Source: Thermodesulfobacteriota bacterium (GTDB lineage Bacteria > Desulfobacterota > Deferrisomatia > Deferrisomatales > JACRMM01). From it: a stretch of DNA of 57,344 nt. Positions 4,831 to 45,111 of this stretch are shown here, in pieces. The position numbers and the translations under genes were made by a program. The stretch's first letter is position 1; every line of letters starts with the position of its first letter. The notes beneath the pieces were generated by a model. The model made no database searches. It worked only from the letters and a program-made list of their open reading frames with translations, and was not told where the DNA came from. The stretch spans positions 1 through 57,344 of the forward strand of contig JBFLZB010000008.1 in assembly GCA_040756475.1 (NCBI GenBank), in the 5' to 3' direction.

Positions 4831-4860
4831 TCCAACGGACAACGGGCAACGGACAACGAG
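4831..4860. repeat. CAACGGN heptamer repeat (family C), single arm
   Basis: Four tandem copies of a 7-nt unit (CAACGGA, CAACGGG, CAACGGA, CAACGAG) end one base before the purB ATG, leaving purB without a conventional Shine-Dalgarno. The same unit forms two-armed hairpins at 39029 and 46269. Confidence 0.75.
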
Positions 4861-4861
4861 C

Positions 4862-6160
4862 ATGATTTCACGTTACTCGCGGCCCGAGATGGCCGCCGTA
4901 TGGACCGACGAAAACCGCTACCGGAAGTGGCTCGAGGTAGAGCTCTACGCCTGCGAAGCGTGGAACCGCCTGGGCCAGCTCCCCGACGAGGCCCTGGCGA
5001 CCATCCGAACCCGAGCGGCCTTCGAGGTGGGACGCATCGAGGAGATCGAGGCCGAGGTCAAGCACGACGTCATCGCTTTTCTCACAAACGTGGCCGAGCA
5101 CGTGGGGCCCGACGCCCGCTTCGTCCACATGGGGCTCACCTCCTCGGACGTGCTCGACACGTCGCTGGCGATGCTGCTCGTCGAGGCCGCGGACCTGCTC
5201 ATCGCACAGGTGCGGGAGCTCTTGACGGTGCTCGAGGCCCGGGCCCGGGAGTTCAAGCTCACGCCCCAGATGGGCCGATCCCACGGCATCCACGCCGAAC
5301 CCGTCACCTTCGGCCTCAAGCTGGCCTCGTGGTACGACGAGATGCGCCGCGGCCTCGCGCGCCTGGAGCGCGCCCGCGAGGCCATCGCGGTGGGAAAGAT
5401 CTCGGGGGCCGTGGGCACGTTTGCCAACGTCGACCCCTTCGTGGAGGCGCACGTGTGCGCCCGGGCCGGGATCGCCGCCGCCCGGGTCTCCACTCAGGTG
5501 GTGTCTCGCGATCACCACGCCGAGTTCTTCTCCCAGCTCGCGCTGGTGGGCACCAGCATCGAGAAGTTCTGCGTGGAGATCCGCCACCTCCAGCGCACCG
5601 AGGTCCTCGAAGCCGAGGAGCACTTCGCCAAGGGGCAGAAGGGCTCCTCCGCCATGCCCCACAAGCGCAACCCCATCGCCACCGAGAACCTCTCGGGGTG
5701 CGCGCGCCTCCTGCGCTCTTACGCCCAGGCGGCCCTGGAGGACGTGGCCCTCTGGCACGAGCGCGACATCTCCCACTCGAGCGTGGAGCGGGTGATCGCC
5801 CCCGATGCGACGATCCTGCTGCACTACATGCTCCATCGGTTTACGAACGTGGTGCGTAACCTGGTGGTCTACCCGAACAACATGCTCCGCAATCTGGAGC
5901 TCACGGGGGGCCTCATCCACAGCCAGCGCCTGCTCCTCAAGCTCGTGGAGAAGGGCGCGAGCCGGGAGGACGCCTACCGCCTGGTGCAGCGAAACGCCAT
6001 GAGAGTGTGGGAGGAAGGGGCCGACTACAAGTCGCTTCTCCGGGCCGACCCCGAGGTGGCGGCGCTGCTCACCCCGGCCGAGATCGACGAGGCGTTCGAC
6101 CTGGGCTACCACCTCAAGCACGTGGACACGATCTTTCGCAGGGTGTTCGGAGAGGCGTGA
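4862..6160 (+). CDS. purB: Adenylosuccinate lyase
   Basis: A 432-residue adenylosuccinate lyase of the fumarase/aspartase superfamily. It cleaves SAICAR to AICAR and adenylosuccinate to AMP, releasing fumarate, in the cytoplasm. The superfamily signature is present as GSSAMPHKRNP at about residues 261-271. Other family blocks are MGLTSSDVLDTS (residues 84-95), GRSHGIHAEPVTFG (138-151) with the catalytic His, and RDISHSSVERV (about 302-312). Length is normal. The ATG is preceded not by a clear ribosome binding site but by a tandem CAACGGN repeat. It starts the purine run purB-purL-purQ-purF. Confidence 0.97.
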   Translation: MISRYSRPEMAAVWTDENRYRKWLEVELYACEAWNRLGQLPDEALATIRTRAAFEVGRIEEIEAEVKHDVIAFLTNVAEHVGPDARFVHMGLTSSDVLDTSLAMLLVEAADLLIAQVRELLTVLEARAREFKLTPQMGRSHGIHAEPVTFGLKLASWYDEMRRGLARLERAREAIAVGKISGAVGTFANVDPFVEAHVCARAGIAAARVSTQVVSRDHHAEFFSQLALVGTSIEKFCVEIRHLQRTEVLEAEEHFAKGQKGSSAMPHKRNPIATENLSGCARLLRSYAQAALEDVALWHERDISHSSVERVIAPDATILLHYMLHRFTNVVRNLVVYPNNMLRNLELTGGLIHSQRLLLKLVEKGASREDAYRLVQRNAMRVWEEGADYKSLLRADPEVAALLTPAEIDEAFDLGYHLKHVDTIFRRVFGEA

Positions 6161-6234
6161 GAGGTGAAACGTGAAGAGTGAAGGGGAGACCGTCCCCTCC
6201 CTTCACTTCTCACTTTTCACTTCTCACTTTTCAC
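6157..6234. repeat. GTGAGA/GTGAAAC repeat hairpin (family B)
   Basis: The left arm (GTGAGAGGTGAAACGTGAAG...) and the right arm (CTTCACTTCTCACTTTTCAC...) are made of 7-nt-like units and are complementary, with a GGGGAGACCGTCCCC core, so the whole element folds back on itself. It fills the purB-purL junction and overlaps the purB stop codon. Confidence 0.8.
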
Positions 6235-10193: not shown

Positions 10194-10247
10194 AATCGAA
10201 ATCGATCTCGAAATCGATCTCGACTTCGATTGCGATTCCGATTCGGT
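10194..10247. repeat. ATCGNN hexamer repeat hairpin (family A)
   Basis: Tandem 6-nt units (AAATCGAAATCGATCTCG...) run into complementary units (...CGACTTCGATTGCGATTCCG), giving an inverted arrangement. It lies in the 255-nt gap between purQ and purF. Sister copies are at 13022, 24131, 31393, 41274 and 44171. Confidence 0.8.
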
Positions 10248-13021: not shown

Positions 13022-13091
13022 TTCGAAATCGGTATCGGTATCGCAATCGGGATCGGGGTCGGGGTCGAAACCGACTTCGATTTGGATTGCG
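13022..13091. repeat. ATCGGT hexamer repeat hairpin (family A)
   Basis: The arm AATCGGTATCGGTATCG-CAATCGGGATCGGGGTC is followed by a complementary CCGACTTCGATTTGGATTG arm. It occupies the convergent junction between the lipoprotein (+) and HTH (-) genes, so it could serve as a bidirectional terminator or structural spacer. Confidence 0.75.
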
Positions 13092-14362: not shown

Positions 14363-14713
14363 ATGAACCGACGCATCCTCGCAACCGCCCTCATCGCCGC
14401 AGCCCTTGCCGCCGCCGCATGGGCGGCGAGCCCGCCCCCGGAGCCCGCTCCGGTAACCAACTTCGGCAAGAAGGCCCCGGTGGTCTTCGACCACAGCCAG
14501 CACGCGGGCGAGGGGTTCACCTGCGTCCAGTGTCACCACAACGAGGCCGAGGGCACGTTCCGGTGCGGCTCGTGCCACACCCTGGAAGGGGAAGGAGACG
14601 TCCTCAAGATCCGCGACGCCTTCCACGGCAAAGACGTGGGCAAGTGTTGGGGCTGCCACCTGGCGCCCGACGCCGGCACCAAGCTCAAGTGCAGCGATTG
14701 CCACAAGGAGTGA
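14363..14713 (+). CDS. Small periplasmic tetrahaem cytochrome c (c3/c7-like)
   Basis: A 116-residue exported cytochrome. Residues 1-21 are a signal peptide. Four CXXCH haem-binding motifs occur: CVQCH (54-58), CGSCH (68-72), CWGCH (95-99) and CSDCH (110-114). Extra His residues (FDHSQH, the second His after CVQCH, and AFHGKD) can act as distal ligands, as in class III cytochromes. Such proteins shuttle electrons in the periplasm of metal- and sulfate-reducing bacteria. The start follows AAGGAGGCAGACC, a strong ribosome binding site. The gene stands alone, with about 270 nt upstream in which I see no clear promoter. Confidence 0.92.
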   Translation: MNRRILATALIAAALAAAAWAASPPPEPAPVTNFGKKAPVVFDHSQHAGEGFTCVQCHHNEAEGTFRCGSCHTLEGEGDVLKIRDAFHGKDVGKCWGCHLAPDAGTKLKCSDCHKE

Positions 14714-15112: not shown

Positions 15113-16270
15113 ATGGTTGTCACCATCGAGGACGTGGCCCGAGCCCTGGAGGAACTCGCCCCGCCAGGGCTCGCGGAACCCTGGGACCGCTGCGGGCTCC
15201 AGGTGGGCGATCCCCGGGCGCCGGTCCACGCGGTCCTGGTGGCTCTGGACCCCTCCCCCCAGGCTCTCTCCGAAGCCCTTCGCCGCCGAGCCCAGCTCCT
15301 CGTCACCCACCACCCCCTGCTGCTCGAACCCCCTGCCAGTCTCGATCTCTCCACTCCGCTGCCCCGCCTCCTGGCCGACTTCATCCGCTCCGACGTGGGG
15401 GTGTACGCCGCCCACACGAGCCTGGACCGTGCCCCGGGTGGCGTCAACGATGCCCTGGCACGGTGCCTGGGGCTCGGCGAGGTGCGCTGCCTCGGTTCGG
15501 GGGAGACCCTGTACAAGCTCGTGGTCACCATTCCCCTGGGGTACGAGGACCCGGTGCGCCGCGCGCTGGCCGCAGCCGGCGCGGGGAAGATCGGCAAGTA
15601 TGAGGGCTGCGGCTTCGGATGCCGCGGAATGGGGGTATTCGTGCCACGGGAGGGGGCCCGGCCCTTCCTGGGCGAGCCCGGGAAGGAAGAGCGGGCGGAC
15701 GAGACCCGCTGGGAAGTCGTGGTGCGCCGCAGCGCGCTGCCGGGTGCGCTGGCCGCGGTGCGCCGCGAGCACCCGTACGAAGAACCGGCGGTGGACGTGT
15801 ACGCGCTGGAAGGGACCGTCTCGGAGGGAGGGCTCGGCCGCTGGGGGGTCCTTCCGGCACCGCGGACCCTGGGAGAGTGGGCGCGCGATGTGGCCCAAGT
15901 TCTCGGGGCAGGTTCGGCGCGCCTGGTGGGCGACCCACGGGCGGTGGTGGAGCGGGTGGGGGTGTGCGGCGGAAGCGGCACCTCCCTTTGGCCCCAGGCC
16001 GTGGCCGCAGGGGTTCAGGTGCTCGTGACGGGCGACGTCAAGTACCACGCGGCCCTCGAGGCTCGGCAGGCCGGGTTGGCCCTGCTCGACGTGGGCCACG
16101 CCCCGAGCGAACGGGTGGCGATCGACGTCGTGGTCGCTCATCTCGCATCCTGGGCCGGCCGCAGCGGCGTTGGCCTGGAGGTGAGCGCCTTTCGGGAAGC
16201 CGACCCCTTCCTCCCCGTGGAGATCTCGGGCGGCCCGCGGGGCGCCCGTTGCGAGAAGACTTTGCTGTAA
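15113..16270 (+). CDS. NIF3-like dinuclear metal centre protein
   Basis: A 385-residue NIF3/YqfO-type protein. The family forms hexameric toroids with a two-metal site and has a debated role; GTP cyclohydrolase-like folds and metal-related roles are proposed. Metal ligands are visible: LVTHHPLLL near residue 63, AAHTSLD near 99, and YHAALEARQAG...GHAPSE at about 311-330. The length indicates the long form with a central inserted PII/CutA-like domain (about residues 125-245, containing YKLVVTIPLGYEDPVRRAL). The start codon context is weak (GGAGAGG is 13-16 nt away). A zinc-ribbon protein gene follows after 22 nt, a pairing common in this bacterial group. Confidence 0.9.
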   Translation: MVVTIEDVARALEELAPPGLAEPWDRCGLQVGDPRAPVHAVLVALDPSPQALSEALRRRAQLLVTHHPLLLEPPASLDLSTPLPRLLADFIRSDVGVYAAHTSLDRAPGGVNDALARCLGLGEVRCLGSGETLYKLVVTIPLGYEDPVRRALAAAGAGKIGKYEGCGFGCRGMGVFVPREGARPFLGEPGKEERADETRWEVVVRRSALPGALAAVRREHPYEEPAVDVYALEGTVSEGGLGRWGVLPAPRTLGEWARDVAQVLGAGSARLVGDPRAVVERVGVCGGSGTSLWPQAVAAGVQVLVTGDVKYHAALEARQAGLALLDVGHAPSERVAIDVVVAHLASWAGRSGVGLEVSAFREADPFLPVEISGGPRGARCEKTLL

Positions 16271-16292: not shown

Positions 16293-17015
16293 TTGGACGC
16301 AGACGTACTGGGACAGCTGGAGAAGCTGCAAGAGGTAGCCGACGAAATGGACCGCCTGGAGGCAAGGCGCCGGGGCGCCGTGCAGGCCAAGGAAAAGGCC
16401 GACGCTTCCTTGCAGGAAGCATCGGTTCTCCTTGCCGGCAAGGAGGAGCGGGCGCGGGCCGTGGACATGGAGCGCCGCAAGCGCGAGCTGGTGCTCAAGG
16501 CCGAGCGGGACCGGATGGCTCGAGTGAAAGGGCGCCTGGGCGACGTCAAGACGAGCCGGGAGTATCAGGCGGTGCTCCAGGAGATTGCGTCGGCCAAGCA
16601 CACCATCACCGAACAGGAGGAAGCCCAGCTCCGGGAGATGCAGGAACTGGAGTCGATGGAGAGCGAGATTGCCGGGTTGCGGGGCGAGCTCCAGACTCTG
16701 GGCGAGAGCTCGCGCACCGCGCAGCAGGAACTGACCCGGGTGCTGGAGGAAACCGACGCCGCCGTGGCCGAGTGCAAGGGCCAGGAGTCGTCGATCCTCA
16801 AGAGCCTTCCCCGGGAGGCCGTGGACCGCTACCGCCTCATCCGCTCCCGCCGGGGGGGACTGGCGGTGGTGCCCGCCAAGAACGAGGCCTGCACCGCGTG
16901 CTTCATGCGCCTGCCGCCCCAGATGTACCTTGAGATCATGCGGCGCACCAAGGTGATCCAGTGCCCCAACTGCCACCGCATCCTCATCCCTCCGAAGGTC
17001 CGGGCCGAAGAGTGA
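16293..17015 (+). CDS. Coiled-coil C4 zinc-ribbon protein (DUF164-type)
   Basis: A 240-residue protein of the CT398/DUF164-like family. It starts with TTG at 16293, just after GAGGAGGAAGCG. Residues about 5-180 form a long charged coiled coil (LEKLQEVADEMDRLEARRRG onward). The C-terminus holds a four-cysteine zinc ribbon, CTACF near residue 198 and CPNC near 226. A Chlamydia homologue has been linked to sigma-54 and type III secretion proteins, but the general role is unknown. It probably forms an operon with the NIF3-like gene and precedes the RNase P RNA gene. Confidence 0.88.
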   Translation: MDADVLGQLEKLQEVADEMDRLEARRRGAVQAKEKADASLQEASVLLAGKEERARAVDMERRKRELVLKAERDRMARVKGRLGDVKTSREYQAVLQEIASAKHTITEQEEAQLREMQELESMESEIAGLRGELQTLGESSRTAQQELTRVLEETDAAVAECKGQESSILKSLPREAVDRYRLIRSRRGGLAVVPAKNEACTACFMRLPPQMYLEIMRRTKVIQCPNCHRILIPPKVRAEE

Positions 17016-17098
17016 AGCGGCAGGGGCCGGTGGGGGGGCGCAACCCGGCGGCCGGGGCGAAGTATGTGCCCGCCAGTGCATTAGCGGGAACGAAGTTA

Positions 17099-17484
17099 GG
17101 AAGGGAGGCAGGGAGAGAGGGCGGGCAGCCGCCCCGTCAGCGGGGAGGAAAGTCCGGGCTCCACAGGGCAGGGTGCTGGATAACGTCCAGTCGGGGTGAC
17201 CCGAAGGAAAGTGCAACAGAGAGCAGACCGCCGGACTCCGGTTCGGCAAGGGTGAAACGGTGAGGTAAGAGCTCACCAGCGGCCCGGGTGACCGGGCCGG
17301 CTCGGCAAACCCCACCCGGAGCAAGACCAAATAGGGGAGCGTTACGAGGGCTGCCCGCCCCAGGCTCCCGGGTAGGTCGCTCGAGGCCTCGAGGAATCGA
17401 GGTCCCAGAGGAATGGCTGCCACCCCCGCAGGGGGGCACAGAACCCGGCTTACGACCCTCTCGCCCTCCCTCCCTTCCCTTTTT
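17099..17484 (+). ncRNA. rnpB: RNase P RNA, bacterial class A
   Basis: The catalytic RNA that matures tRNA 5' ends. Conserved class A landmarks appear in order: GAGGAAAGTCCGGGCTCC near 17145, ACAGAGAGCAGACCGCC near 17217, GGTGAAACGGTGAGGTAAGA near 17260, GGAGCAAGACCAAATAGGG near 17318, and ACAGAACCCGGCTTAC near 17438. The ends 17099-17121 and 17456-17478 can pair over about 23 bp with only two mismatches, forming an unusually long P1 helix. It is followed by TTTTT at 17480-17484, which may also terminate transcription. The exact mature ends are inferred from that pairing. Confidence 0.95.
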
Positions 17485-17507
17485 GGGGGGCATCGGCCGA
17501 CCTTCGA

Positions 17508-17537
17508 TTGACAGGGAAACGGGGGGTTGCCTAGACT
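17508..17537 (+). promoter_or_regulatory. Candidate sigma70 promoter of the TlpA/cytochrome operon
   Basis: TTGACA (17508-17513), an 18-nt spacer and TAGACT (17532-17537) lie 50 nt before the first TlpA-like gene and just after the rnpB terminator. The -35 box is perfect and the -10 box matches four of six consensus bases. Confidence 0.6.
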
Positions 17538-17587
17538 TCGTAAGATTTGTCACGATCTCACGCGTCGACATCCAAGGGAGGCTCGTC

Positions 17588-18130
17588 ATGTCTTGCCGAA
17601 CGTCTCGGTTCGCCACGGTGCTGATCGCTCTGGCCGCCTTGTGCCTCGCGGGCCCTTCCTGGAGCTCGGAAGACGAAGAATGGGTGGGCAAGCCCGCGCC
17701 GAGCTTCGAGCTCAAGGACCTGGAGGGCCGGCCGCTCCACTTGTCGGAGCTCCTGGGGAAGAAGGTGGTCTGGCTCAACTTCTGGGGCCTTCGCTGCGGC
17801 CCCTGCGTGCGGGAGCTCCCGGTCCTGGAAAAGCTCTACCAGACCTACAAGGACAAGGGGTTGCTCATCATCGGTCTGAATGCCGACGGGGTGGACGCCG
17901 CCTTCATTGCGAAGCAGTTCGAGACCCGCGACGATCTCAAGGCGGCGGGGGTCACCTTCCCCATGGCGCCGGACACCGACTTCGCGGTCATCGATGCCTA
18001 CGGGCTCCTGGGCGCTCCCCTCAACGTGATGATCGACCGCCAGGGGGTGGTGCAGTTCCGCCACGAGGGGTACGAAGACGGGGACGAGATCCATTACGTG
18101 AAGGTGCTGGAGAAGCTGCTTGTCCAGTGA
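17588..18130 (+). CDS. Periplasmic TlpA/ResA-like thioredoxin-fold protein (first)
   Basis: A 180-residue exported thiol-disulfide oxidoreductase. A signal peptide covers residues 1-27 (VLIALAALCLAGPSWSS). The mature domain has the AhpC/TlpA opening GKPAPSFELKDLEGRPLHLSE, the active site WGLRCGPC (Cys70 and Cys73), and the cis-proline region LLGAPLNVMIDRQG. In this family such proteins reduce apocytochrome cysteines for haem attachment or act as periplasmic redox partners. The start has GGGAGG in front. It heads a five-gene operon, with the next gene overlapping its end by 11 nt, and encodes the first of three related proteins there. Confidence 0.9.
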   Translation: MSCRTSRFATVLIALAALCLAGPSWSSEDEEWVGKPAPSFELKDLEGRPLHLSELLGKKVVWLNFWGLRCGPCVRELPVLEKLYQTYKDKGLLIIGLNADGVDAAFIAKQFETRDDLKAAGVTFPMAPDTDFAVIDAYGLLGAPLNVMIDRQGVVQFRHEGYEDGDEIHYVKVLEKLLVQ

Positions 18131-18704
18131 CCCTGCGCGGGGTTCCGGGGGCCGACTTCTGCTGCTGCTTGCAGCCCTCTGGCTGGGCGTGGGCTGCACC
18201 ACGGTGCGGCCCCAGGGCGAGGTCTGGCAGCTGGAGACGGTCGTCCCCCTGGAGGAGGGCAAGGTCGAGGTGGGGCGACCCTACTTCGACTTCACCGCCC
18301 CCGAGCTCATGGGCGGCACCGTGCGCCTGTCTTCGTTGGTGGGCAAGAAGGTGGTGCTCCTCCAGTTCTGGGGTATCCGATGCGCCCCGTGTCTGGCCGA
18401 GATGGAGTTCCTGGTGGACTTGCAGTCCCGCTATCGAGGCCGGGGGCTCCAGGTGATCGGCGTCAATACGGATCGGGCGAGCCCGGCCCAGCTCACCGAG
18501 GCCCTGGTGGCGCGGAAGATAGAGCCCGCGTACCCGCACGTGCTGGACCCCAACCTGACCATTGCGAGACACTACACCCAGTGGCTGATTCCGGTAACGG
18601 TCCTCATCGACCGCACCGGGGTCGTACGGGCCGTTCACACCGGCTACAAGCCGGAGCTGGCAGGCGCCATCGAGGCCGAAATCGAAGCCCTGCTCGGGAG
18701 GTGA
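18120..18704 (+). CDS. TlpA/ResA-like lipoprotein (second)
   Basis: A 194-residue thioredoxin-fold protein. The best start is TTG at 18120, inside the previous gene and 7-8 nt after GGAG. The N-terminus is hydrophobic (RLLLLLAALWLGVGC) with Cys26 as a probable lipid attachment site. The lipobox is imperfect because Gly occupies the -3 position. The active site is WGIRCAPC (Cys88 and Cys91). The cis-proline loop is LIPVTVLIDRTG. It is probably anchored in the membrane, facing the periplasm. It differs from the first copy in its long acidic N-terminal linker (EVWQLETVVPLEEGKVEVG). The cytochrome gene follows after 4 nt. Confidence 0.87.
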   Translation: MSSDPARGSGGRLLLLLAALWLGVGCTTVRPQGEVWQLETVVPLEEGKVEVGRPYFDFTAPELMGGTVRLSSLVGKKVVLLQFWGIRCAPCLAEMEFLVDLQSRYRGRGLQVIGVNTDRASPAQLTEALVARKIEPAYPHVLDPNLTIARHYTQWLIPVTVLIDRTGVVRAVHTGYKPELAGAIEAEIEALLGR

Positions 18705-18708
18705 GATC

Positions 18709-19818
18709 GTGGGGAAGGCAACTGCCGTCCTCTGTCTGTGGACGCTCGTGGCCGCTGTGGGCTCGGCGTCGGGAGACGCCTTCGACCCCCCGGGGTACGC
18801 GGGCAGCGACCGGTGCGGCCCGTGCCACGCCGAGAAGTACGAGGGCTGGAAGCAGACCTTCCACGCCACCGTGGTCCAGGACGCCAAGCAGAACCCGTCC
18901 GTCGTCCTCGGCGACTTCTCGGTCCCCGGGCTCGGGTTCACCCTCGACGACGTGGAGTTCACGATCGGGGGACACTGGGACCAGCGTTACATGAAGAAGA
19001 TCGACGACGATTACTACGTGCTCCCGAAGCTGTGGAGCGTCCAGTCCCAGACCTGGCGCCCCTACAACGTGTGGTCCTGGCGCAAGAAGCCCTACTCGAA
19101 GTTCTGCAAGGGGTGCCACGTCACGGCCTACGACCCGCGGGCGAACGTCCCCACCGCGGAGAACCGCGTGGGGTGCGAGGCCTGCCACGGTCCGGGATGG
19201 AATCACGCGGCCAGCGGCGGGAAGAAGCCCATCGTCAACCCGGCAAAGCTGTCCGAAGACCGCCGCGACATGGTTTGCGCCGCCTGCCACGTGCGCGGAC
19301 AGGACAACTCGGGAGAATACTACTTTCCGGTGGGGTACGTGCCGGGCGAGGACCTGGGGCTCTACTATCGTCCAATGGAAGTGCCGGAGGGAGAGACCAA
19401 CAGCCAGGCGATCCTGCGCGAGTTCTCCAAGTGGAAGAGCGACCGGGAATCGAACACCAAGGTGCGGTGCGAGGTCTGCGGTATCTACGACGCGAGCGAG
19501 GAGAGGCGGCCCGAGGCCGCAGGGGCCATGGGGCTGTGCCTGGGCTGCCACGACTTCAAGGACCGGTACGCCGAGCACTCGCGCCATCCGGATTCCGCCC
19601 AGATCCTCTGCCTCGACTGCCACGTACCGCAGACTCCGGAGATCATGAACACCGAGCGTCTCGACATTCACACGCCCGGATACTTCCTGTTGCACCCCGA
19701 CAACTGCTACGATCGACGCATCGAGAACCGCTGCGGCAAGTGCCACGCCGACAAGGGCCTCGAATGGGCACAGAGGCTCGTCGAGCAGTGGCGCCGGCCG
19801 GTGGAGGTGAGACATTGA
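18709..19818 (+). CDS. Multihaem cytochrome c with seven CXXCH and one CXXCG site
   Basis: A 369-residue exported cytochrome. The GTG start follows GGGAGGTGA. Residues 1-22 form a signal peptide. Haem motifs are at residues 36-40, 133-137, 156-160, 190-194, 277-281, 301-305 and 342-346. At 254-258 the sequence is CEVCG, where the proximal His is replaced by Gly, so an ancestral eighth haem site appears lost or altered. The opening GYAGSDRCGPCHAEKYEGW and the general spacing resemble the cytochrome c554/octahaem-type families. It sits between TlpA-like genes, suggesting these act on it or share its electron flow. Confidence 0.9.
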   Translation: MGKATAVLCLWTLVAAVGSASGDAFDPPGYAGSDRCGPCHAEKYEGWKQTFHATVVQDAKQNPSVVLGDFSVPGLGFTLDDVEFTIGGHWDQRYMKKIDDDYYVLPKLWSVQSQTWRPYNVWSWRKKPYSKFCKGCHVTAYDPRANVPTAENRVGCEACHGPGWNHAASGGKKPIVNPAKLSEDRRDMVCAACHVRGQDNSGEYYFPVGYVPGEDLGLYYRPMEVPEGETNSQAILREFSKWKSDRESNTKVRCEVCGIYDASEERRPEAAGAMGLCLGCHDFKDRYAEHSRHPDSAQILCLDCHVPQTPEIMNTERLDIHTPGYFLLHPDNCYDRRIENRCGKCHADKGLEWAQRLVEQWRRPVEVRH

Positions 19819-19871
19819 GCGGGGACCGGGGCGACGAAGAGACTGCCGAGCGGCGAACAAAGGAGCGGGAC

Positions 19872-20444
19872 ATGAGGAGCAGCACGTGCGCTAAGCTGGG
19901 AGCCATCGTCGGGGCTGCCCTCCTGGGAGTGGCCGGGTGGATGGGCTCGGCGACCGCGCAGGACACCGCGATGAAGCTCAAGATCGGGGACCGGGCTCCG
20001 GACTTCTCCCTGGAGGAGTTCACGACGGGCCAGCAGGTGACCCTCTCCCAGTACCTGGGCAGGAAGGTCGTGATGCTCGAGTTCTGGGCCACCTGGTGCG
20101 ACATCTGCAAGGTCGAGATGCCCCGTCTGGTGCGGGAGTACGAGGAGTACAAGAACAAGGGCTACGAGCTCCTGGCCATTACCCTGAGCCGAGGCGACGA
20201 CAAGGACCGCCGAAAGATCCAGGCCCTCAAGGACCAGCACAAGCTGAGCTACCCGATCCTCCTCGACACCGAGTACGAGGTTGCCACCCGGGTGTATGGC
20301 CTGTCGGGCCCCATTCCCCTGAAGGTCATCATCGACTGCCAGGGACGGATCCGGTACTCCCACGTGGGTGACTACGCCGACGGCGTCAGCGAGGTACCCT
20401 TCGTGCTCGACGAACTGCTGGCCGATCCCGCCTGCAAGCGGTGA
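19872..20444 (+). CDS. Periplasmic TlpA/ResA-like thioredoxin-fold protein (third)
   Basis: A 190-residue exported protein. The ATG at 19872 follows AAAGGAGCGGGAC. The signal peptide (AIVGAALLGVAGWMGSATAQ) ends near residue 30. The active site is FWATWCDICK (Cys76 and Cys79), and the cis-proline segment is GPIPLKVIIDCQG, which carries an extra Cys. The central segment with ITLSRGDDKDRRKIQALKDQ is longer than in the other two copies. Its CDIC active-site dipeptide differs from CGPC and CAPC, so the three proteins probably differ in redox potential. The next gene overlaps its stop by 4 nt. Confidence 0.9.
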   Translation: MRSSTCAKLGAIVGAALLGVAGWMGSATAQDTAMKLKIGDRAPDFSLEEFTTGQQVTLSQYLGRKVVMLEFWATWCDICKVEMPRLVREYEEYKNKGYELLAITLSRGDDKDRRKIQALKDQHKLSYPILLDTEYEVATRVYGLSGPIPLKVIIDCQGRIRYSHVGDYADGVSEVPFVLDELLADPACKR

Positions 20445-22183
20445 GACGAGACCTCCTACCGCTGCTCCTCGCAGGGCTCGCCGGGCTGTGCCTGGCGGGC
20501 CCTGACGTGTCTCTCCTGTGGGTCTCCGGGGGGGCCGAGGCCGCCGTGCGAACCCTGCCCCGCCGGTCGCCGTCGGGATCGCCGGCAGTAACCGACGCCC
20601 TCGCCGCCCCCACCGAAGCCGGGCGAGTGCAGGCTCTCCTCGCCGTGATGGGGGGAGACGACCTCCCCGCGGCCCTGGAAGCCATGGAGATGCTCGCCTC
20701 CATGGGCCCCCCCGTCGTCCCGCGCCTGGTCTCGGAAATGCGCCACACGCGCAACAACTGGCTCGTGGGAGGAGCCCTGGTGGCCATGGGCTCCCAGGCG
20801 GTGGGACCCATGATCGAGCTCCTGGACAACGCCACCGAGGCCACGGTCGTGGACTGCCTCTACCTCCTGGGGGAGATCCAGGACCGCAGGGCGGTTCCCA
20901 CCCTCGTTCGATACCTGGACGACCGGCGAGACAAGGTGCGGATGCACGCCGTAACGGCGCTCCTCCAGATCGGCGGGCCTCGCGCCGTGGAGGCGGTGCT
21001 CTCGCGGCTGACCCGGGAGGGCAAGGGGCTCGAGAGCTTCATCGTCGAGAGCCTCCTGCGTTACGGCAGGAAGAGCGTGGAGCCGGTGCTCCAGAGCCTC
21101 CTGAGCGACGACCCCCGAGTGCGGCGGGAGGCGGCCTACCTCCTCGGGGGCCTGGGGGACCTGCGGGCGGTGGACCCGCTGCTCCGGACCCTCGGAGACC
21201 CCGACCCCCGGGTCCGCCGCAATGCGGCCTACGCACTGGGTGAGCTCGGCACCGCAGTCTCGGAGCCCCAGGGCATCGTCATCGCCCTGAGCCTGAGGCT
21301 CGCGGACGAATCGCCGGAGGTGGCCGACTCGGCGCGCGCCGCCCTGGTGCGGTACGGGCCCCGGGCCGTCGAGACGCTGATCGAGCGCGCCCGCACCGGC
21401 GGGGAGGACGAAAAGCTGGCGTGTCTCAACGCCCTGCGGGAGATCGGGAGCCCGGAGGGCGAAGCGGTCATGATCGAGCTCTTGCGCCACCCCCAGCGCC
21501 GGATTCGGATTGCGGCCGCAGCCGGTCTCATCACCTCTGGAACGGGCCGGGCCGTGGAGGCCCTGCTCGACGCTCTTCGCGACGACGACCTGCGCTGGTT
21601 CGCGACCCTCGCCTTGGAGAAGGTGGGCGGCGAGAATCCCGACCTCTTCTTCTCCGCCCGCCCCAACGACCCCACCATGAGCCTGCGAACCCAGATCCTC
21701 GTGAGGCTGGGCCCGGCGGTGATCCCCGCCCTGCGCGAGCATCTGCGTGACGAGAGCGTAGGCCGGCGAGCAGCGGCCCTCTGGATCCTGGGAGAGATCG
21801 GAGATCCCTCCGCCGCGCCGGACGTGCTGGGGCACCTGATCGACCCCCACCTGGGGTGGCTCGCCGGACGAGCGCTCCACAAGCTCGGGCAGCCCGGGCT
21901 CGAGGCCCTCGTACGGTATACCCAGGCACCCCCTTCGGAACCCGGTGCCCACCAGGCGGTGGAGGCACTCGCCCTCTTCGACGACGCGCGAGCATGGGAC
22001 GCCCTGGAAGCAGCGGTGGGGGGGGGGTTGCCCCGAGCCGCCCGCGTGCGCTCGGCCGTGCTCGTATCCTTGTCCGGCGACCCGGCCCGGGTGGACCGCC
22101 TGCGGGCGTACCTCGACGGACCGGGGCAGGGGCTCTGGCCCGACGTGGAAGCCGCCCTCCGGGCCGAGGGCCAGGTGCGATAA
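20441..22183 (+). CDS. Exported HEAT-repeat protein
   Basis: A 580-residue protein. The GTG start overlaps the previous stop (GTGA). The first about 20 residues are hydrophobic (LLPLLLAGLAGLCLAG), consistent with a signal peptide. From about residue 65 to 560 the chain is a string of HEAT/PBS-lyase-type repeats, for example VPTLVRYLDDRRDKVRMHAV, DPRVRREAAYLLGGLGDLRA and DPRVRRNAAYALGELG. Such alpha-solenoids bind partner proteins. Its place at the end of the TlpA/cytochrome operon suggests a periplasmic scaffold for those proteins. No catalytic motif is seen. Confidence 0.85.
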   Translation: MRRDLLPLLLAGLAGLCLAGPDVSLLWVSGGAEAAVRTLPRRSPSGSPAVTDALAAPTEAGRVQALLAVMGGDDLPAALEAMEMLASMGPPVVPRLVSEMRHTRNNWLVGGALVAMGSQAVGPMIELLDNATEATVVDCLYLLGEIQDRRAVPTLVRYLDDRRDKVRMHAVTALLQIGGPRAVEAVLSRLTREGKGLESFIVESLLRYGRKSVEPVLQSLLSDDPRVRREAAYLLGGLGDLRAVDPLLRTLGDPDPRVRRNAAYALGELGTAVSEPQGIVIALSLRLADESPEVADSARAALVRYGPRAVETLIERARTGGEDEKLACLNALREIGSPEGEAVMIELLRHPQRRIRIAAAAGLITSGTGRAVEALLDALRDDDLRWFATLALEKVGGENPDLFFSARPNDPTMSLRTQILVRLGPAVIPALREHLRDESVGRRAAALWILGEIGDPSAAPDVLGHLIDPHLGWLAGRALHKLGQPGLEALVRYTQAPPSEPGAHQAVEALALFDDARAWDALEAAVGGGLPRAARVRSAVLVSLSGDPARVDRLRAYLDGPGQGLWPDVEAALRAEGQVR

Positions 22184-22309
22184 GCCCCCGCGGAACGTGC
22201 GCCATGCGCGCCGCGCGCGACGCGTTGCGTTGGTTTTCCCGCCTGTGCTACCGTAACCGCCGGCACTCGGGGCCGTCTCCGGCCCTCGTCTTCGCCGTGG
22301 CCGGGAAAC

Positions 22310-22954
22310 ATGACCCAGACCAAGTGCATCCGCGTGCTCATCGCCGAGGACCAGCGTCTCCTGCGCCAGTGTTTCCAGGAAGTCCTGGACCTGGACGCGG
22401 AGATCGAGGTCGTGGGCGCGGCGTCGGACGGCCTGGAGGCCCTGGTCCTGGCCGAGAAGTACCAGCCCCACGTGATCCTCATGGATCTGGCCATGCCCAA
22501 CCTCGACGGCATCAGCGCCACGGGGCTGATCCACGAGCGCCTGCCGGGCGCCAAGGTCCTGATGCTCTCCCTCCACGACACCCCCACGCAGGTGGGCAAG
22601 GCCGTAAAGGCGGGGATCGCCGGATATGTCCTCAAGGACGTGGATCTGGCAGAGCTCGTTCGCATCATCAAGGCCGTGCACCGGGGAGAGGAGATCCACT
22701 CCCCGTTCCTCGCGGACCAGAAGCTCCACGCCGCCACCGACCGAAGGCGCTACGGTCTCTCGTCCCGGGAGCTCCAGGTGCTCAAGCTCCTGGTGCAGGG
22801 GTTGAACAACGCCGAGATCGCAGAGGATCTCTGCGTCTCCGAGCAGACCGTGAAGAAGGAGCTCGTGAGCCTCTTCGAGAAGCTCGACGTGAAGAACCGC
22901 ACCCAGGCAGCGGTCAAGGGGGTCCAGATCGGCCTGGCCGAGCCCCTGGGCTGA
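22310..22954 (+). CDS. NarL/FixJ-family response regulator
   Basis: A 214-residue two-component regulator. The receiver domain (about residues 7-125) has the acidic pocket IAEDQ, the phosphoacceptor Asp59 in ILMDLAMPN, and the conserved Lys in YVLKDVD. The output domain (about 148-210) is a LuxR-type HTH, LSSRELQVLKLLVQGLNNAEIA followed by VSEQTVKKELVSLFEKL. No histidine kinase is nearby, so its signal is unknown. It begins 126 nt after the HEAT-repeat gene and could control the preceding redox operon, but no operator evidence supports that. Confidence 0.93.
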   Translation: MTQTKCIRVLIAEDQRLLRQCFQEVLDLDAEIEVVGAASDGLEALVLAEKYQPHVILMDLAMPNLDGISATGLIHERLPGAKVLMLSLHDTPTQVGKAVKAGIAGYVLKDVDLAELVRIIKAVHRGEEIHSPFLADQKLHAATDRRRYGLSSRELQVLKLLVQGLNNAEIAEDLCVSEQTVKKELVSLFEKLDVKNRTQAAVKGVQIGLAEPLG

Positions 22955-24107: not shown

Positions 24108-24130
24108 GGGGAAGGGGTGCGCCCCAACCT

Positions 24131-24195
24131 CGGAATCGGTATCGCTATCGGAGCCCAGTCCGATTTCGATTCCGATCCCGATCCCGATTCCGACC
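24131..24195. repeat. ATCGGT hexamer repeat hairpin (family A)
   Basis: The left arm GGAATCGGTATCGCTATCGG and the right arm CCGATTTCGATTCCGATCCC are complementary 6-nt repeat arms. It fills the convergent junction between the thioesterase (+) and DctM (-) genes and may end both transcripts. Confidence 0.8.
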
Positions 24196-31340: not shown

Positions 31341-31372
31341 TCGTGAAGCGTGAGACGTGAAGCGTGAGACAG
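31341..31372. repeat. GTGAAGC/GTGAGAC heptamer repeat, single arm (family B)
   Basis: Four 7-nt units (GTGAAGC, GTGAGAC, GTGAAGC, GTGAGAC) sit just upstream of the 2Fe-2S gene start, directly next to a family A element. No complementary arm is seen. Confidence 0.7.
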
Positions 31373-31392: not shown

Positions 31393-31446
31393 GTCGGAAT
31401 CGGTATCGACATCGGGGCCGGCGTCGATACCGATAGCGATACCGGG
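31393..31446. repeat. ATCGGT hexamer repeat hairpin (family A)
   Basis: The left arm GTCGGAATCGGTATCGACATC and the right arm GTCGATACCGATAGCGATACC are complementary, with a GGGGCCGGC loop. It lies between the FAD and 2Fe-2S genes, ending next to the FAD-gene stop. Confidence 0.8.
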
Positions 31447-39028: not shown

Positions 39029-39120
39029 GCTCGTTGCTCGTTGTTCGTTGCCCGTGGTCAATAAGACCCCTCGCCGTCGCCCTTTCTCCAACGGGCAACG
39101 AGCAACGGGCCACGAGCAGC
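39029..39120. repeat. CAACGGG heptamer repeat hairpin (family C)
   Basis: The left arm (GCTCGTTGCTCGTTGTTCGT) and the right arm (CAACGGGCAACGAGCAACGG) are complementary 7-nt tandem arms around an AT-containing loop. It spans almost the whole HyuA-mutase junction. Confidence 0.85.
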
Positions 39121-41273: not shown

Positions 41274-41357
41274 CGTCGATACCGATACCGCTGTCGATCC
41301 CGATACCGATACCGAGCTCGCCCTCGCTATCGCTATCGGTATCGCTATCGGGTTCGG
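41274..41357. repeat. ATCGGT hexamer repeat hairpin (family A)
   Basis: The longest family A copy. The left arm GTCGATACCGATACCGCTGTC and the right arm GCTATCGCTATCGGTATCGC run in opposite orientation over about 84 nt, between FixX and the B12 subunit gene. Confidence 0.85.
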
Positions 41358-43134: not shown

Positions 43135-43209
43135 GTCGTGAGACGTGAGACGTGAGACGTGAGACGACGTCCATGGGCGGGGTTCCTCTTCTACGCTTCA
43201 CGCTTCACG
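43135..43209. repeat. GTGAGAC heptamer repeat hairpin (family B)
   Basis: The left arm GTCGTGAGACGTGAGACGTG and the right arm CTACGCTTCACGCTTCACGG are 7-nt unit arrays in opposite orientation. The element is in the etfA-fixC junction and overlaps the etfA stop codon region. Confidence 0.8.
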
Positions 43210-45033: not shown

Positions 45034-45111
45034 GTCGTGAAGCGTGAGACGTGAAACGTGAGACGGGGACCCGCTCTTCACGCTTCACGTCTCACGTCTA
45101 ACGTTTCACGC
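45034..45111. repeat. GTGAAGC/GTGAGAC heptamer repeat hairpin (family B)
   Basis: The left arm TCGTGAAGCGTGAGACGTGA and the right arm CTTCACGCTTCACGTCTCAC are complementary over about 30 nt with a GGGGACCCGC loop. It sits between the acyl-CoA dehydrogenase stop and etfB start. Confidence 0.85.

Follow-up and report, generated by a model that had tools for sequence, protein, structure and literature searches.

We describe a five-gene cassette, conserved among genomes of the order Deferrisomatales, that encodes a seven-heme c-type cytochrome, three exported thioredoxin-fold proteins and a HEAT-repeat protein. The cytochrome belongs to a clade that has lost the histidines of one heme site but kept its cysteine pair, and whose genes mostly lie near thioredoxin genes. 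These features, read from sequence, suggest that electrons may pass between hemes and protein thiols outside the cell membrane in these relatives of iron-reducing bacteria.

The window is the whole stretch of DNA that was analysed (57,344 nucleotides). The features needed here are as follows.

15113..16270, + strand: NIF3/DUF34 gene, a conserved syntenic neighbour outside the cassette
16293..17015, + strand: C4 zinc-ribbon gene (Zn_ribbon_9; Pfam 3e-14), a conserved syntenic neighbour
17508..17537, + strand: sigma-70-like promoter, TTGACA-18-TAGACT, a consensus match only
17588..18130, + strand: T1, exported ResA/TlpA-like thiol oxidoreductase, FWGLRCGPC (Pfam AhpC-TSA 1e-22)
18120..18704, + strand: T2, TTG start, probable lipoprotein, ResA/TlpA-like, FWGIRCAPC (Pfam AhpC-TSA 3e-18)
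18709..19818, + strand: CYT, GTG start, exported 7-heme c-type cytochrome, OcwA/c554-like, CYT7 subfamily (Pfam Cytochrome_C554 2e-9)
19468..19479, + strand: encodes the non-heme cysteine pair of CYT, CEVC within CEVCG (C232 and C235 in mature numbering), at the heme V position of octaheme relatives
19705..19707, + strand: third non-heme cysteine of CYT (NCYD), specific to the CYT7 subfamily
19872..20444, + strand: T3, exported ResA/TlpA-like thiol oxidoreductase, FWATWCDIC (Pfam AhpC-TSA 2e-25)
20441..22183, + strand: HEAT, GTG start, exported HEAT-repeat protein, probable scaffold (Pfam HEAT_2 7e-44)

An earlier, sequence-only reading had proposed five tightly coupled open reading frames, and their place, strand and spacing are borne out: successive genes are joined by an 11-nt overlap, a 4-nt gap, a 53-nt gap and a 4-nt overlap. 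It had also named the active sites CGPC, CAPC and CDIC correctly. Pfam assigns all three thioredoxin-fold proteins to AhpC-TSA/Redoxin (1e-18 to 1e-25), and the AhpC-TSA scores of T1, T2 and T3 (80.6, 66.4 and 89.7 bits, gathering cut-off 26) place them within this fold. The multihaem cytochrome and HEAT-repeat protein of that reading are likewise recognized, as Cytochrome_C554 in CYT and as HEAT_2 and HEAT_PBS in HEAT. Signal sequences and the lipoprotein cysteine of T2 were read by eye and agree with the proposed export and with one probable lipoprotein; the signal-sequence cysteine is also present in the T2 orthologues inspected (L038, L048, L054 and L063). The promoter is the sole match in 17000-22600, where 0.1 is expected in shuffled sequences, and lies 50 nt 5' of the cassette. 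A bilin-lyase-like (CpcE/F) identity for HEAT was rejected, as it gave generic repeat matches only, far under cut-offs.

T1, T2 and T3 share the invariant residues C70, C73, E76 (the glutamate after CXXC) and P144 (the cis-proline), and the last two are also common to ResA. Among solved structures, ResA proteins are the best relatives of T1 and T3, and T2 is matched best by 3gl3, a DsbE-like thioredoxin, with ResA close behind. All three score below the curated cut-off of 170 bits for the ResA subfamily NF002854 (T1 104.5, T2 69.5 and T3 98.7 bits). In trees, they form separate orthogroups of 17, 11 and 20 rows, with SH-aLRT supports of 96, 86 and 99, respectively.

CYT carries seven CXXCH motifs and one conserved CEVCG that has no histidine. 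The latter is the main clue, and it was overlooked in the sequence-only reading. Homology to OcwA and c554 extends across the heme core: the Cytochrome_C554 score is 38.6 bits (cut-off 20.8), and a profile match to OcwA of Thermincola potens (PDB 6I5B) aligns ~290 residues with an E value of 1e-26. Two other identities were rejected on score: the GSU2203 decaheme family NF041028 (59.9 of 325 bits) and the DmsE family decaheme TIGR03508 (48.9 of 192.2 bits) gave weak local matches near hemes 3-4 that fall far short of the curated cut-offs. The multiheme selenoprotein MccSep (9wt8) was a weak PDB match (E 0.16). An AlphaFold2 model built from 10 sequences (pLDDT 44, pTM 0.38) was unusable for placing the cysteine pair or for comparing the heme stacking and three-helix C-terminus with those of OcwA/c554 cytochromes.

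The cysteine pair was studied by comparing 39 members of the CYT clade (among them CYT7, CYT8 and CYT11 proteins) with 11 related octaheme cytochromes. In the octaheme proteins, the heme V site is normal and is accompanied by two further conserved histidines, and their mature chains have no non-heme cysteine. Three histidines (win 240, 251 and 254) are found in 73-100% of these 11 proteins and in 0% of the clade, whereas the cysteine pair is retained in all 39 clade members. The residue that follows the pair in the clade is variable (G, K, N, R or C). An NrfA CXXCK-like active-site heme is disfavoured: the window protein has CEVCG, lysine occurs in only 2 of the 39 members, closely related CYT11 proteins have either K or G at this residue, and the histidines near it are lost. 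The third non-heme cysteine is present in 21 of 22 CYT7 proteins and absent from CYT8, CYT11 and the octaheme relatives.

Gene neighborhoods differ between the same two groups. Thioredoxin genes lie within 2.5 kb of 31/39 clade members and of 0/11 octaheme relatives; the latter include an octaheme-type paralogue in G004, a genome that also has a clade cytochrome. The heme-less clade arose by a single change on the tree (stem support 83), so neither this association nor the co-occurrence of genes reported below is phylogenetically replicated. Because of this single origin, the Fisher p value for thioredoxin neighborhood and motif (9e-6) is descriptive only.

The order T1-T2-CYT-T3-HEAT recurs in six more Deferrisomatales genomes (seven in all) at ~50-80% identity, beside the same two housekeeping neighbours; wherever a window-type locus has enough sequence, the NIF3/DUF34 and C4 zinc-ribbon genes are found upstream of it. 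With start codons picked by position, spacing in the six other genomes is -11 to +7 nt for T1/T2, -4 to +4 for T2/CYT, 46-99 for CYT/T3 and -4 to +35 for T3/HEAT. The synteny is thus not limited to one strain; a restriction to one strain had been named as a finding that would count against the proposal. Outside the order, a T1-T2-CYT7-T3 core occurs in families f25 and f30 (the latter in genome G037). In these comparisons, close orthologues of HEAT turned up only in cassettes of the Deferrisomatales type, and in other families of the phylum another multiheme cytochrome takes the place of HEAT. As judged from the trees, the cassette predates the order, because the separate T1, T2 and T3 orthogroups are shared between families within and outside it.

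CYT7 and T3 occur together in 13 of 297 genomes, T3 alone in three and CYT7 alone in two (Fisher p 3e-18, again descriptive only in view of the single origin). Scattering of the genes in relatives had been named as a second finding that would count against the proposal, and it is partly seen: one family of the order has CYT elsewhere, but T1 and T3 remain together at the ancestral site. In family f3, CYT7 lies away from thioredoxin genes. Of the four f3 genomes with CYT7, three still have T1 and T3 at another location, and the fourth, G011, gave no match to T1 or T3 at the cut-offs applied. G134 and G229 have T3-like genes but no CYT7.

The sequence-only reading had left two options, cytochrome maturation and a thiol/electron chain. 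Of these, the chain is now favoured, because the heme-less CXXC is present throughout the clade and the octaheme relatives that lack the pair also lack thioredoxin neighbours, and maturation is weakened. In the version of the chain to which we give about an even chance, the seven-heme cytochrome and the three ResA/TlpA-like proteins constitute a periplasmic relay that swaps electrons through the non-heme CXXC, with HEAT as a scaffold. The CXXC of CYT would occupy the position at which heme V is bound in an octaheme relative, and T1-T3 (two soluble proteins and one lipoprotein) would dock on CYT and trade electrons through this pair. The multiheme pool would then reduce or, less probably, oxidise envelope thiols, and HEAT would be an added scaffold. 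The gene set and its conservation, the lost heme V histidines, the retained cysteines and the association with thioredoxin genes are visible in the sequences; we infer that the pair carries no heme, that it is redox active and has T1-T3 as partners, and likewise the direction of flow, the substrate and the role of HEAT. Points against the relay are the single origin of the heme-less clade, the separation of CYT7 from thioredoxin genes in f3, and the T3-like genes that lack CYT7.

Dedicated cytochrome maturation is the chief alternative, one that we consider rather unlikely. T1-T3, as ResA/CcmG-like reductases, would hold the many CXXCH cysteines of CYT, or those in other multiheme cytochromes, in the reduced state for heme attachment; HEAT would be an apocytochrome chaperone, and CXXCG a degenerate heme site. 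The sequences of T1-T3 are indeed closest to ResA-like reductases, and biogenesis genes are found in the vicinity of paralogous CYT7 cassettes: in G004 a ccm-type cluster is ~5 kb away, and in G000 CcsA/ResB share the contig. The G004 paralogue and the CcsA/ResB pair of G000 are each accompanied by a DsbC-like protein that contains a heme motif. Moreover, the TlpA-like SirH is encoded alongside a dedicated lyase in the sulfite reductase cluster (PMC6976685). However, the octaheme relatives have an equal heme number and no thioredoxin neighbours, loss of the cysteines would be expected at a degenerate site but all 39 clade members retain them, and three reductases for one cytochrome are excessive. 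The window cassette also contains no heme lyase, ResB/ResC or CcdA, and ResB, CcsA, CcdA-like and Ccm-type genes are located elsewhere in the genome, the first three on other contigs.

It is improbable that CYT is instead a respiratory or detoxifying reductase, akin to OcwA, NrfA and MccA, of an oxyanion of sulfur, selenium or the like; in that case T1-T3 would carry thiol-bound intermediates and the CXXC would belong to the active site. The closest structures (OcwA, c554 and MccA) are enzymes or their kin, OcwA reduces nitrite and hydroxylamine (PMC6703420), and the CYT8 and CYT11 paralogues with their varied thioredoxins suggest substrate variants, but the cassette has no conserved substrate-specific neighbour and the heme V position no longer resembles a heme site. 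Least probable is a purely structural role, in which the CXXC, a common metal-binding motif, could form a disulfide or small metal site, in CYT7 with the third cysteine as part of a fold-stabilising element, and thioredoxins would isomerise or reduce it during folding; the third cysteine is missing from CYT8 and CYT11 and so is no obligatory partner, and a structural role alone would not account for the retention of three redox-competent thioredoxins across families.

Electrons for periplasmic thiol reduction come from cytoplasmic thioredoxin via CcdA or DsbD, and in disulfide formation they pass to quinone via DsbB or VKOR. No DsbB or above-cut-off VKOR was found in these anaerobes. A bolder form of the relay, which we advance tentatively and believe to be doubtful, is that the cassette directly connects electron transport through hemes with the thiol chemistry of the envelope and replaces membrane thiol redox proteins, so that the heme pool supplies thiol reductases without CcdA or DsbD, or dithiols are oxidised into the heme chain. 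If true, metal-reducing bacteria would have a further path for electrons, linking their multiheme networks with envelope thiols. The two-cysteine hypothesis is open to ordinary biochemistry, and a heme-less CXXC inside a multiheme cytochrome is a motif to seek in other cytochrome families.

As was anticipated, the literature searched yielded no named system of this composition, and the comparisons below concern the parts of the cassette. T1-T3 keep the CXXC, glutamate and cis-proline of the extracytoplasmic thioredoxins ResA, CcsX, CcmG and TlpA, but they adjoin a multiheme cytochrome instead of ResB/ResC or CcdA, and three distinct paralogues stand together. CYT aligns with OcwA and c554 of the c554/NrfA/MccA/HAO multiheme superfamily, but differs in having seven heme sites and a conserved non-histidine CXXC; the part of the OcwA report consulted describes that protein as being without redox-active disulfide bridges and makes no mention of thioredoxin partners (PMC6703420). 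As in CYT, one heme site departs from CXXCH in NrfA (CXXCK) and in MccA/SirA (CX15CH or CX12NKGCH), and a thioredoxin-like gene can adjoin (PMC6976685, PMC12285233); in those proteins a dedicated lyase usually attaches heme at this site, whereas the CYT cassette has no lyase gene and the residue after the pair is unconserved. MtrC of Shewanella has a redox-active cysteine pair, CX8C, that controls its function (PMC9973256), and CYT resembles it in carrying a conserved cysteine pair, putatively redox active, on a multiheme cytochrome. MtrC is an extracellular decaheme protein of another family, with a CX8C that responds to oxygen and flavin rather than to partner thioredoxins (PMC9973256). The cassette is a new arrangement of known parts, for which the proposed relay offers a sharp and testable mechanism.

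Rechecking the open reading frames confirmed the five exported genes and the intergenic spacing of the sequence-only reading: three ResA/TlpA-like thioredoxins (T1, T2 and T3; Pfam AhpC-TSA/Redoxin), a seven-heme cytochrome (CYT; Cytochrome_C554) and a HEAT-repeat protein (HEAT; HEAT repeats). On inspection, all five proteins have a signal-like N-terminus, and T2 is the probable lipoprotein that this reading had proposed, because its signal ends in Cys in lipoprotein style. The source is a 57-kb contig within a 5.0-Mb assembly that is 96% complete; the order Deferrisomatales includes the iron reducer Deferrisoma.

Features of the window
17588-22183, forward strand: cassette T1-T2-CYT-T3-HEAT
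50 nt 5' of T1: sigma-70-like promoter, consensus-like match, the only one in 17000-22600
14363-14713: small exported four-heme cytochrome, class III/c7 type
10227-10241, 13023-13049, 24130-24193, 31394-31439, 41277-41350, both strands: 6-base-period repeats (CGATACCGATTCCGA)
4833-4862, 6202-6234, 31342-31370, 39089-39118, 43137-43166, 45036-45065: 7- and 14-base tandem repeats

The four-heme cytochrome is separate, 2.9 kb upstream of the cassette, and does not belong to the block that the inspected relatives share. The dispersed 6-base-period repeats and their variants, often in facing arms, gave 16 matches, versus none expected from shuffles; in translation they become low-complexity Ser/Arg/Asp/Gly runs that could be mistaken for genes. 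The short tandem repeats (CGTGAGA, CAACGGACAACGAG, TCACTTC) occupy several apparently intergenic sites.

The cassette extends further than was evident from one sequence. The five genes occur in identical order and with similar spacing in the window genome, G001, G002, G004, G008, G010 and a further assembly, SZUA-580 (L038), with typical identities to the window of 59-70% (T1), 51-72% (T2), 62-72% (CYT), 70-79% (T3) and 60-73% (HEAT). Genes for NIF3 and a zinc-ribbon protein (ZnR) lie 5' of the cassette in every locus with enough flanking sequence; the G006 contig starts with T3-HEAT, the remainder lying beyond its edge. Family f3, within the order, has NIF3-ZnR-T1-T3 at this site (G003, G005, G007, G009) and CYT elsewhere in the genome, except that none was found in the G005 genome. 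Outside the order, f25 (G032, G069), f30 (G037, G207) and CP070719 retain most or all of T1-T2-CYT7-T3, where CYT7 is the seven-heme subfamily that includes CYT, and a larger CYT relative replaces HEAT 3' of this core. A phylogeny of 90 thioredoxin-like proteins resolves T1, T2 and T3 into distinct groups (SH-aLRT 96, 86 and 99; 17, 11 and 20 rows). Because each group spans the order and the f25/f30-type families, the core appears older than the order; HEAT is probably a later addition.

CYT carries seven CXXCH motifs and one CEVCG. Its closest solved structure is 6I5B, OcwA of Thermincola potens (profile search, E 1e-26), followed by a Carboxydothermus multiheme cytochrome, c554 and MccA. The alignment comprised 50 relatives, each having seven or more CXXCH motifs: 39 from the window's clade and 11 of octaheme type. 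At the CEVCG position, all 11 octaheme-type relatives have a normal CXXCH with a His three residues after the motif, and 8 of 11 have a His 11 residues before the motif's own His. All three His are missing and both Cys retained in 39 of 39 clade members, in which the residue after the pair is mostly G (K in two; C, N and R in one each). The clade has also gained a His at window residue 82 (97%, versus 0% in octaheme-type relatives). Mature octaheme-type chains have no Cys outside heme motifs, any extra Cys being in the signal sequence, and two have a CX3CH heme site. The pair is present in every one of the 22 seven-heme members, 21 of which also carry a third Cys (NCYD); the paralogous CYT8 and CYT11 types have the pair, and the third Cys is not family-wide. 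The simplest reading of these alignments is that heme V was lost together with its ligands and that its Cys were probably retained for some other purpose. The eleven-heme relatives at L066 (8029), L110 (5436) and L117 (6281) have CDVCK, CDICK and CDACG at the heme-less site, and each is followed by two thioredoxin-like genes, with sites CPRC and CPNC.

Counting both strands, 31 of 39 clade members have a thioredoxin-like gene within 2.5 kb (29 on the same strand), versus 0 of 11 octaheme relatives. G004 provides an internal control, with such neighbours beside its heme-less paralogues and none beside its octaheme-type paralogue. Of 297 genomes in the phylum (T3 at E 1e-38 or better), 13 have both T3 and CYT7, three T3 only and two CYT7 only, although a weaker T3-type gene adjoins the CYT7 of one of the latter (G069). 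Because the heme-less state arises by a single change on the cytochrome tree (stem support 83), these counts represent one lineage, not independent repeats. A second CYT paralogue set in the window genome (L054, G000:C23, 747-7564) includes NosD-like beta-helix proteins and a phosphonate-binding-protein-like gene (PF12974) between thioredoxin-like genes.

The most likely function is a cytochrome-thioredoxin relay through the CEVC pair. T1-T3 retain the ResA-like CXXC, a Glu three residues on and a cis-Pro, and the best structure match is ResA for T1 and T3 and, marginally above ResA, a DsbE-like thioredoxin for T2. The gene set, its conservation, the lost and retained motif residues and the thioredoxin neighbourhood are shown directly by sequence. 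We infer that the pair is redox active and partnered by T1-T3, which would bind to CYT and trade two electrons with the pair; the pair would pass them to or from the hemes, and HEAT could serve as scaffold. Direction and substrate are likewise putative. We favor a reductive route, from hemes through thioredoxins to envelope disulfides, since disulfide reduction is what the best-studied relatives of T1-T3 carry out. The oxidative direction, from thiols to hemes, is kept as a less preferred option, because searches of six whole genomes (G000, G001, G003, G004, G032, G037) found no DsbB and, for VKOR, one sub-threshold hit, in G000.

The strongest rival is dedicated cytochrome maturation by the cassette thioredoxins. 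CYT7 paralogue cassettes are found some 5 kb away from a ccm-type cluster (G004) and on the same contig as CcsA/ResB (G000), and both settings contain a DsbC-like protein that carries a heme motif at its N-terminus:

L053, 7809-8630: beside the CYT7 paralogue (G004)
L118, 11490-12287: beside CcsA/ResB (G000)

Moreover, the TlpA-like SirH of Shewanella belongs to the maturation cluster of a related sulfite reductase (PMC6976685). However, octaheme relatives do without thioredoxin neighbours, the window cassette has no lyase, CcdA-like, ResB and CcsA-type genes are present elsewhere in its genome, and two Cys should not persist at a useless site. It is also possible that CYT is a substrate-reducing enzyme, or that the CXXC is purely structural or metal-binding. 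The sequence-only reading, which offered cytochrome maturation or a thiol/electron chain, is supported in part: the proposed relay is of the latter kind, with maturation as its main competitor.

The cassette is conserved and unnamed, and it comes with a specific mechanistic clue; because this clue is correlative and of single evolutionary origin, our confidence is limited. In line with that reading, which knew of none, no named system with this make-up was found in a search of mainly open-access literature; a description may exist elsewhere. CYT scores below the cut-off of every named NCBIfam family, and T1-T3 share the ResA/TlpA-like fold but fall outside the curated ResA subfamily. By homology, CYT belongs with the OcwA/c554 group, OcwA being described in PMC6703420. 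The CX8C pair of MtrC, which, according to the abstract of PMC9973256, controls flavin reduction, is the closest precedent for working paired Cys in a multiheme cytochrome; MtrC is of another cytochrome family, and that abstract mentions no thioredoxin partners.
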